IMG/VR virus record: IMGVR_UViG_3300026530_000001
Coordinates: 1 to 62,106 of that record
Length of the DNA stretch: 62,106 nt
From: a virus
Strand: one strand, 5' to 3'
Shown here piece by piece: positions 8,105 through 9,802 of the stretch. The translations under genes were made by a program, and so were the position numbers. The notes under the pieces are model-generated. The model saw nothing but the letters and a program-made list of their open reading frames with translations. It was not told the DNA's origin and ran no database searches. Position 1 is the stretch's first letter. The number at the start of each line of letters is the position of its first letter.

Positions 8105-8165
8105 CCCCGTCCCAAGTCTCCAACGCGAATGCGTGAGCGGCACGGGCCGCTCGCTTGGGACGGGG
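8105..8165 (+). other. Nested long hairpin between genes
   Basis: CCCCGTCCCAAG (8105-8116) is a perfect 12-base inverted match to CTTGGGACGGGG (8154-8165). Inside it, GAGCGG (8135-8140) pairs with CCGCTC (8147-8152). The structure fills most of the gap between the acidic protein and the transposase-like gene and ends 11 bases before the latter's GGAGG site. No T-run follows, so it is not a classic terminator. It could be an mRNA-stabilising or processing structure. Confidence 0.6.
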
Positions 8166-8185
8166 GCCAACCTTCGGAGGTCGTC

Positions 8186-8560
8186 GTGAGCAAAAGCACA
8201 ATCAGCACTTTCCAACTTTTCGAGCGGTTCCCGAATCAGGAGGCCGCTCGCGTTTATCTTGAGAGCCGTCTGTGGCCCGACGGTGTTCGCTGTCCGTGGT
8301 GCAAAGGCAGCGAGCGCATCACCATTCGTAAGGACGGATTCTATTCCTGCAATCCCTGTGGCAAAGCTAAGTTCACGGTTCGCACCGGCACGATATTCGA
8401 GCGCAGCCACGTTCCTCTGCACAAGTGGGTTTACGCGATGTACCTGCTCGTCACGGCGCGGAAGGGCATTAGCTCGCTGCAACTGGGCAAAGAGATCGGA
8501 ATCACTCAAAAGTCGGCGTGGTTCATGCTTCAACGATTGCGCGAGGCGTGTGCGCCATGA
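8186..8560 (+). CDS. IS1595-type transposase N-terminal domain, stand-alone
   Basis: 124 residues that match the start of IS1595/ISXO2-family transposases: FERFPNQEAARVYLESRLWP, a zinc ribbon (CPWC ... CNPC at about 33-36 and 52-55), then the conserved helix-turn-helix ending SAWFMLQRLREA. A full transposase would continue for about 170 more residues with a DDE nuclease; here the frame stops cleanly after EACAP. No terminal inverted repeats or DDE remnant are visible nearby. It has a good GGAGG site and GTG start, and its stop overlaps the next ATG as ATGA, so it looks like a used DNA-binding gene rather than debris. Confidence 0.72.
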   Translation: MSKSTISTFQLFERFPNQEAARVYLESRLWPDGVRCPWCKGSERITIRKDGFYSCNPCGKAKFTVRTGTIFERSHVPLHKWVYAMYLLVTARKGISSLQLGKEIGITQKSAWFMLQRLREACAP

Positions 8561-8703
8561 AGGACGAAGCCAAGCTGCATCAGATCGTGGATATAGTTCT
8601 CGCCTATCGCCCGGCGTCGAAAGGAAAGCCGCCGCGCAAGCCGAAGCCGCGCAAGAAACCTGCGAAGAAGAAAAGCAAAGAAACGACAGCGGAAAGCTCG
8701 TAA
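8557..8703 (+). CDS. Lys/Pro-rich basic small protein
   Basis: 48 residues: a short helix (residues 1-18) followed by a disordered tail of repeated KPKPRKK-like units, typical of nucleic-acid-binding tails. The ATGA overlap couples it to the transposase-derived domain upstream, so the two products may act together. It could be a tail split off from a longer fusion. No family recognised. Confidence 0.5.
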   Translation: MKDEAKLHQIVDIVLAYRPASKGKPPRKPKPRKKPAKKKSKETTAESS

Positions 8704-8705
8704 TC

Positions 8706-8879
8706 TCAACTTATAGCGTTTTCAAATCGCATCTCAATATCTTCCCGAGCATCACGCCTCAGCTTATCCAGATGTGCGAAATGATGAGGTTTGCATCGAA
8801 CGAATGGAGACTTAACCATTCGCGTGCAATCTAAGCACTTCGCTTTCGTTCGCTTCTGTTTCGGGCTACGTTGTTTCAT
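8706..8879 (-). CDS. Small zinc-finger-like protein
   Basis: 57 residues with a basic N-terminus, then Cys15, Cys18, Cys29 and His32/His33 (CLDC ... CKPHH), a plausible zinc finger followed by a charged helix. It starts at ATG with a weak AAGGGTAAG site. It converges on the Lys/Pro-rich gene, with 2 bases between the stops. The ligand spacing supports a real gene, but it borders a long region of RNA-like structure. Confidence 0.45.
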   Translation of the reverse strand: MKQRSPKQKRTKAKCLDCTRMVKSPFVRCKPHHFAHLDKLRRDAREDIEMRFENAIS

Positions 8880-8884
8880 CGCTT

Positions 8885-9600
8885 ACCCTTACCGCTTAGT
8901 TGGTGAACGGTGGACACACTGAGACCTACCTGCGTGGTCTCAGGAATACCGCTCAGTATGGAGCCACGGAGTTGTTTCCTGACGGGTTCTCTCAGCGGTG
9001 TAGACGCTTATTGTTCTTCACGTCCGGTCCGAATGATTTAACGTGCCTGTCCTGAGACGCGGGGCCGAATCTCTACTGACTGTTTATGCGCCCACAGAAT
9101 GAACCACGGCGGCTTAGAACTATGGCGTCAGCGAGCTTTTCGGCTTCGTATGCCGTAAGCGCTACCTTGACACGGTGATTAGTGGATTCGTAACTGGCTG
9201 GATAATCAGGCAGGGAATCCATTCTTTCAAACAACAATCACGAAATCAGGGTAGGCCAGAGTTGGACTTCGGCGTTAGACCAGTCGCTCCCAATCGCGAT
9301 GTTCAGTTGCTCGTCCCGCAGATGTTTCGGCCTTCTGAAGGAAAAGATTTGAAGTGCAAGGTGGTTGATAGTAAAGGTCGCGACGTGCGCCTTCATCTCC
9401 AACATATCATGGTACGCTTCCGGTAACACTTCAGGATTTGGTGTGATGTCTACCGCCTGAGCGCTGTAGCGCTGATCCTTCTTCTCATTACACTTGTACG
9501 AAGTCCGGTTGGCTCAAAAGTCAGCGCAGCGCATGGCCTCTGCTGTCATCGGGAAGCCCGTCGAAATTAAAGAGAACTGGGCGAATAGAATCAAGCCGTA
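8885..9600 (+). ncRNA. Candidate large structured RNA upstream of tRNA-Pro
   Basis: About 720 bases without a convincing gene on either strand but full of hairpins. CTGAGACC/GGTCTCAG (8919-8926/8936-8943) is perfect. ATACCGCT (8946-8953) pairs with AGCGGTGT (8994-9001) with one T-G wobble that favours the plus strand. At 9364-9403, GTTG, AAGG and CGC pair with GCG, CCTT and CAAC in one stem. At 9445-9550, GATG, GCC, GCGCT and GCGCTGA pair in order with TCAGCGC, AGCGC, GGC and CATC around a hairpin-bearing loop. The run ends beside a tRNA on the same strand. Large phage RNAs of the GOLLD and ROOL classes are known from such tRNA-neighbouring sites, but membership is not shown here. Confidence 0.55.
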
Positions 9601-9603
9601 AAT

Positions 9604-9680
9604 CGGGAAGTAGCGCAGTCAGGCAGCGCACTTGCCTTGGGAGCAAGGGGTCGAAGGTTCAAATCCTTCCTTCCCGACCA
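9604..9680 (+). tRNA. tRNA-Pro(UGG)
   Basis: The full cloverleaf can be drawn: acceptor CGGGAAG (9604-9610) with CTTCCCG, anticodon stem CTTGC/GCAAG with loop CTTGGGA giving anticodon TGG, and T-arm GAAGG-TTCAAAT-CCTTC. The discriminator is A and the CCA end is encoded. Phage tRNAs usually supplement host decoding or replace cleaved host tRNAs. It is flanked by hairpin-rich DNA on both sides. Confidence 0.95.
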
Positions 9681-9684
9681 GATT

Positions 9685-9753
9685 GACGCTTACGGCGTCT
9701 AATGCACGTCGGTGCTAAGGCCATCAGGGAAACTTGGTGGCCTGACGTGTTTT
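9685..9753 (+). terminator. Hairpins after tRNA-Pro ending in a terminator-like stem
   Basis: Five bases after the tRNA is a hairpin GACGC-TTACG-GCGTC (9685-9699). A larger stem follows: CACGTC (9705-9710) pairs with GACGTG (9744-9749), and AGGCCATCA (9718-9726) pairs with TGGTGGCCT (9735-9743) with one T-G wobble. TGTTTTC comes next. This could terminate the transcript carrying the structured RNA and tRNA, or be the 3' domain of the same RNA. Confidence 0.5.
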
Positions 9754-9766
9754 CACCTTCCCCGCC

Positions 9767-9777
9767 AACGTAAATCC
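9767..9777 (+). promoter_or_regulatory. AACGTAAATCC motif, copy 1
   Basis: Exact 11-base motif also found at 25923-25933 and 37310-37320, always on the plus strand in a gap ahead of a late gene set. Here it starts 36 bases before the endolysin ATG. A late promoter element or other regulator-binding site is the simplest idea; see findings. Confidence 0.45.
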
Positions 9778-9802
9778 TGAGTCCCGCCTATTCTGAAGGG
9801 AC

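Follow-up and report, generated by a model that had tools for sequence, protein, structure and literature searches.

Does the interval 8885–9600 of this viral DNA, which lies beside a tRNA gene, encode a structured RNA, and, if so, on which strand, over what extent, and of which family? The window (the whole stretch of DNA analyzed, 62,106 bases) is an IMG/VR-type virus record in which a terminase, a lytic transglycosylase-like protein, and an endolysin-like gene lie near the locus. A first-pass annotation had interpreted the interval as a giant, hairpin-rich RNA that runs on the plus strand into a tRNA-Pro, and that belongs either to the GOLLD or ROOL RNAs or to a new class. Conserved RNA structure does lie inside the interval, most of which holds no convincing conserved gene, as that annotation had stated; the proposed strand, extent, showcase hairpin, and GOLLD/ROOL assignment do not stand. 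A conserved structured RNA is very probably encoded on the minus strand, and we assign a probability of roughly 0.5 to the reading that it represents an undescribed phage RNA family that serves as a structured leader of variable genes.

Members of the RNA Family

Comparison with the DNA of related phages gave three short ordered matches in a genome (G002) whose terminase is 80% identical to that of the window; all three follow the minus strand, between 9250 and 8706. With the most conserved piece (GTCCACCGTTCACCAACTA) as the query, two more contigs (G007 and G008) were recovered from IMG/VR, and a looser search (16 fixed bases) recovered G009 amid many chance matches; an 18-base motif located just upstream of the most conserved piece also retrieves these three contigs. 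No relative of the window's terminase was found in G007, G008, or G009, and therefore the RNA is common to phages that are otherwise not recognizably close. The five clear members (the window, G002, G007, G008, and G009, the last with the 3′ half only) fall in three lineages (two pairs plus one).

Covariance models of the 3′ half (R1) and the 5′ half (R2), built solely from G007 and G008 and given a shortened calibration that makes their E-values rough, match the window at 9047–8897 (R1; 69.7 bits, E = 1.1e-15) and at 9243–9035 (R2; 61.6 bits, E = 4.7e-15), with the two matches overlapping and in the correct order, and match G002 with 54.7 bits (3′ half, E = 9e-12) and 53.0 bits (5′ half, E = 1e-12). 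G009 is matched by the 3′ model (36.8 bits, approximate E = 3.9e-7) and unmatched by the 5′ model; chance carriers of the motif reach at best 17.8 bits (model R3), far under the scores of G009, G002, and the window. A further genome (G004), with a terminase 53% identical to that of the window, contains two correctly ordered matches of 10.6 and 13.6 bits, as well as a 31-nt match (E = 1.3e-4) at the position of helices P3–P4 (see below); because the best chance carrier outscores both bit values, G004 is regarded as a probable, diverged member.

Other searches returned little. Pattern TTGTTTGAAAGAATGGAT gave chance matches only, apart from G002, and pattern TGTCCACCGTTN{0,2}ACCAAC gave nothing beyond the members already known. 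Among 84,980 prokaryote genomes, pattern AAACAAYTCCGTGGCTCC found no RNA member, the matches being due to chance and mainly to one Lachnospiraceae ribosomal-protein gene, which we take to be rplP. Model R3, run on samples of 396 and 399 genomes from two phyla, had no match, an empty answer of little weight. Against isolated phages and plasmids, the G008 RNA had no match, and the window and G009 stretches had weak short matches only.

Structure of the RNA

Together, the R1 and R2 matches delimit an RNA of ~350 nt on the minus strand (8897–9243), with its 5′ end near 9243 and its last conserved base near 8897. It does not extend across 8885–9600 into the tRNA: a separation of ~360 bases, with no detectable conservation in 9241–9601, lies between it and the neighboring tRNA-Pro (TGG) gene (9604–9680), which ARAGORN places on the plus strand, as annotated in the first pass, and thus opposite to the RNA rather than on the RNA's own strand. 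The "more stems" recorded past the tRNA include a terminator-like hairpin (9718–9743, plus strand) that is a plausible intrinsic terminator.

The fold has two parts, and all coordinates given for it are on the minus strand. In the 5′ half, helix P1 (9241–9236 with 9180–9175; GUGAUU/AAUCAC) encloses the conserved single strand GUUGUUUGAAAG (9235–9224) and hairpin P2 (9220–9215 with 9189–9184; GGAUUC/GAAUCC). P1 has six of six pairs in four members with differing letters (ACGAUU/AAUCGU, GCUUGA/UCAGGC, and GCUU(A)GG/CCAAGC in the others), and P2 is compensated in G002 (GGAUCA/UGAUCC) and G008 (GAAUUC/GAAUUC). The long-range helix P3 (9174–9169 with 9047–9042; CGUGUC/GGCACG) joins arms about 115–130 nt apart, and is likewise compensated (CGUCUC/GAGACG in G002; CGUGUU/AACACG in G008). 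P3 holds helix P3b, found by eye (9162–9159 with 9060–9057; GCGC/GCGU in the window, GCAC/GUGU in G002, GAGC/GCUU in G007 and G008); hairpin P4 (9155–9152 with 9144–9141; CGGC/GCCG, with CAGU/GCUG in G008 and a single A-C mismatch in G007); and helix P5 (9110–9107 with 9067–9064; GCCG/CGGC), which is weakly tested because it is nearly invariant.

P3 is followed by CACGUUAAA and then by the 3′ half, which comprises hairpins P6 and P7 together with invariant single-stranded motifs on both sides of P7. P6 (9025–9020 with 9007–9002; GGACGU/GCGUCU) reads UAUCGC/GCGAUA in G002 and GUUCGC/GCGAAU in G007, and shows double changes in five of its six pairs. The invariant motif GGAAACAACUCCGUGGCUCC (8960–8979) comes next, with AACAAYTCCGTGGCTCC common to the window, G007, G008, and G009, and AGAGACAATTACGTTGGCTCC in G002. 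P7 (helix 2 of alignment A11; 8942–8936 with 8926–8920; UGAGACC/GGUCUCA) is UGUGACC/GGUCACA in G002, AGUAACC/GGUUACU in G007 and G008, and AGAGG/CCUCU in G009. It is succeeded by GUGUGUCCACCGUUCACCAACUAA and then by an ATG; the invariant 3′ motif UCCACCGUUCACCAAC (8899–8914) is identical in the window, G007, G008, and G009, and has one extra U in G002. In the unaligned sequences of the window, G002, G007, and G008, helices P1, P2, P3, P6, and P7 are complete, with differing letters. Inspection by eye also suggested a pairing of UUGUUU with AAACAA between the 5′ and 3′ ends, present in the window, G002, and G008; it is broken in G007 and was left out of the fold.

Covariation, Strand, and Coding Potential

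Covariation in the alignments of homologues is strong, and supports the earlier proposal of a sizeable structured RNA beside the tRNA. Compensatory double changes occur in 24 of 42 scored pairs (13 of 27 in alignment A10, 11 of 15 in A11); 95–96% of cells are standard pairs, the observed values were reached by none of 500 shuffles, and pairing falls to 26–41% when the partners are slid by 1–3 columns. Because covariance-model alignments lean towards structure, the count was repeated on a structure-blind MAFFT alignment, in which 96.9% of cells in 24 pairs are paired and 10 pairs have double changes, with no shuffle of 500 as high; P3 is paired in 100% of cells in this alignment as well. From the MAFFT alignment, RNAalifold by itself proposed P2, P3, P4, P5, and most of P6. 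The covariation rests on few independent events, because the sure members amount to two pairs plus one.

Folding energy alone is uninformative about the strand, because neither strand of the whole 716-nt interval is set apart from shuffles (z = −1.56 plus, −1.04 minus). The slightly stabler plus-strand value is what can be said for a plus-strand giant RNA extending into the tRNA, and one of the 20 shuffles is equally stable. The nested helices at 9445–9550, which had been its showcase, can indeed be drawn, and are at chance level (z = 0.05 plus and −0.06 minus for 9440–9555); there is no Rfam match, and the wobbles of the conserved pairs sit on the opposite strand. We therefore regard the plus-strand reading as extremely improbable. 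Read on the minus strand, the conserved pairs comprise 10 G-U and two A-C cells (p = 0.019). Taken alone, this asymmetry is modest evidence for the minus strand; it agrees with the promoter-like site of G007 and with the same-strand genes that follow the RNA (see below).

The same asymmetry counts against a DNA element with inverted repeats that would act as DNA (a site of replication, packaging, or attachment), as do the distance between the P3 arms, the RNA-like alternation of helices with invariant unpaired motifs, and the promoter-like site ahead of P1 in G007. Such an element would fit a locus that is noncoding, conserved across phages, and intergenic in every genome examined; overall, we consider it improbable.

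Small minus-strand protein genes (9237–9073 and 9495–9241) might also explain the conservation, since codon bias locally favors both frames. The reading frames across the RNA are not conserved: the 9237–9073 frame is broken in G002, where the helices persist and the aligned peptides differ, and even G007 and G008 are separated by single-base indels inside the RNA. The second frame is a stop-free run with coding-like codon use that sits between the RNA and tRNA-Pro, beyond the bounds of the RNA; no homologue of it was found in IMG/VR. Coding would in any case leave the base-pair covariation unaccounted for. This reading is already largely refuted, and we give it very little credence.

Comparison With Known RNA Families

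In a search of 8700–9800 against all Rfam families, including GOLLD and ROOL, the RNA had no match at E up to 10; tRNA-Pro alone (69.7 bits) was above threshold, and the sole extra match was a snoRNA far under its cut-off. The homologous loci of G002, G007, and G008 also had no match at E = 5. The suggested GOLLD/ROOL membership is thus not upheld, and the alternative offered in the first pass, a new RNA class, is favored by the evidence; because Rfam lacks some of the motifs ever proposed, an earlier unnamed description is possible. A self-splicing group I or II intron was considered and rejected: there is no Rfam match, and in the five clear members the RNA lies between reading frames, not inside a recognized gene.

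GOLLD RNAs have a conserved 3′ region and a changeable 5′ region, and ROOL RNAs are large structured RNAs of phages and prophages that often occur near tRNAs (PMC12286853). The family described here resembles GOLLD in combining a conserved 3′ part with a changeable 5′ part, as shown by G009, but its conserved span is about 350 nt, whereas GOLLD often exceeds 800 nt; moreover, a gene begins directly after the RNA, and the GOLLD covariance model does not match it. Like ROOL, it is a large structured phage RNA, but it is smaller, has another helix plan, and is unmatched by the ROOL model. A tRNA neighbor is present in two of six members (counting the probable G004).

The HK022 put RNA is an anti-termination leader that acts in cis at the start of transcribed units (PMC9378689). 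The two are alike as phage RNAs that head transcribed units, with both this placement and the cis action being proposals in the present case. They differ in that a single short ORF follows the RNA in the window; because a transcript in the window would serve this one ORF only, there would be little for an anti-termination mechanism to do. The put RNA is also far smaller than the ~350-nt RNA of the window.

Genomic Setting and Possible Function

The existence of the RNA is well supported; from its genomic position, we infer a function. Conserved structure lies directly before the start codon of a same-strand ORF in all five clear members, with the ATG 10–26 nt past the invariant 3′ motif (from CACCAAC: 19 nt in the window, 17 in G002, 22 in G007, 10 in G008, and 26 in G009). 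By chance, an ATG that opens an ORF of 40 aa or more would fall within 26 nt with a probability of 0.11–0.17 per genome; across about three independent lineages, the joint chance is roughly 0.002, and the placement is less striking where genes are packed. In the window, the RNA is followed by a basic 57-aa ORF (8706–8879, minus strand) with no Pfam or PHROG match. This ORF and its G002 counterpart (L066 6053–6394, plus strand) share the end MRFENAI, at which 24 of 28 DNA bases match, and are otherwise dissimilar. In G004, genes for endonuclease VII and then an N6/N4 DNA methylase (together L067 4204–5349, minus strand) directly follow the probable RNA.

On the other side of the 57-aa ORF in the window, a plus-strand ORF (8129–8560; PHROG 25593) encodes an IS1595-type zinc-ribbon (Pfam E = 1.1e-9) without the catalytic part, and is either what remains of a transposase or a stand-alone phage protein; a short lysine/arginine-rich ORF (8518–8703) comes after it.

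Evidence for a promoter varies between members. In G007, a promoter scan picked out the promoter-like site TGCACA-17-TATATT, ending about 6 nt ahead of P1; a possible −10 element in the window (TACCCT, 9248–9253, minus strand, upstream of P1) is weak, and aligns with this TATATT and with TACACT in G008. Just upstream of the G007 and G008 RNAs, a conserved terminator-like hairpin is present on the opposite strand (L071 3243–3270; L072 2940–2963).

We propose that a promoter of its own drives the RNA as a 5′ leader, co-transcribed with a small interchangeable gene (here the 57-aa ORF), and that the folded leader would control, in cis, either transcription read-through or translation of the downstream gene. 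We put the odds of a leader that acts mainly in cis at about even. Against such a leader, the promoter scan had no match in the window or G002, and a nearby start codon is expected anyway in the tightly packed operons of G007, G008, and G009; the RNAs of G007 and G008 are each embedded in a long run of same-strand genes, among them YqaJ, helicase, and methylase genes. A further argument against control of a single pathway is that the ORFs after the RNA are mostly unrelated between phages.

Unrelated downstream genes would instead suit the main rival of the leader reading, to which we give a somewhat lower probability: a free trans-acting noncoding RNA, either directed at the host or its ribosomes or forming a GOLLD/ROOL-like RNA-only assembly, with the following gene incidental. 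Its size, complexity, and long-range pairing are in keeping with a trans-acting RNA, as is the conservation of the 3′ half alongside a changeable 5′ half, seen in GOLLD (PMC12286853). A tRNA adjoins the RNA on the opposite strand in the window and on the same strand in G009, which also favors action in trans, but no tRNA turned up in the inspected stretches of G002, G004, G007, and G008. Further against a free RNA are the start codon that closely follows the motif in each of the five clear members, and the lack, on the strand of the RNA, of a terminator-like hairpin past the 3′ motif. In G009, the RNA is preceded by amidase and tRNA-Glu genes; the latter (L144 1954–2030, plus strand) has an imperfect acceptor stem, lies directly 5′ of the 3′ half, and might share one transcript with the RNA, by analogy with the tRNAs in some GOLLD RNAs.

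Implications

To our knowledge, few large structured phage RNAs are known. There is an evenly balanced prospect that this is a new class of large phage RNA with a function unseen in described families, namely, a portable structured leader (or a trans-acting RNA) that may be passed between unrelated phages and placed before changing cargo genes. It is smaller than GOLLD and ROOL, is common to phages without recognizably related terminases, and has a constant place relative to a start codon, so that action in cis versus trans is directly testable with ordinary reporters. The locus also illustrates that single-sequence folding can mislead on strand, and that very few sequences can suffice to find rare RNA families of uncultured phages.
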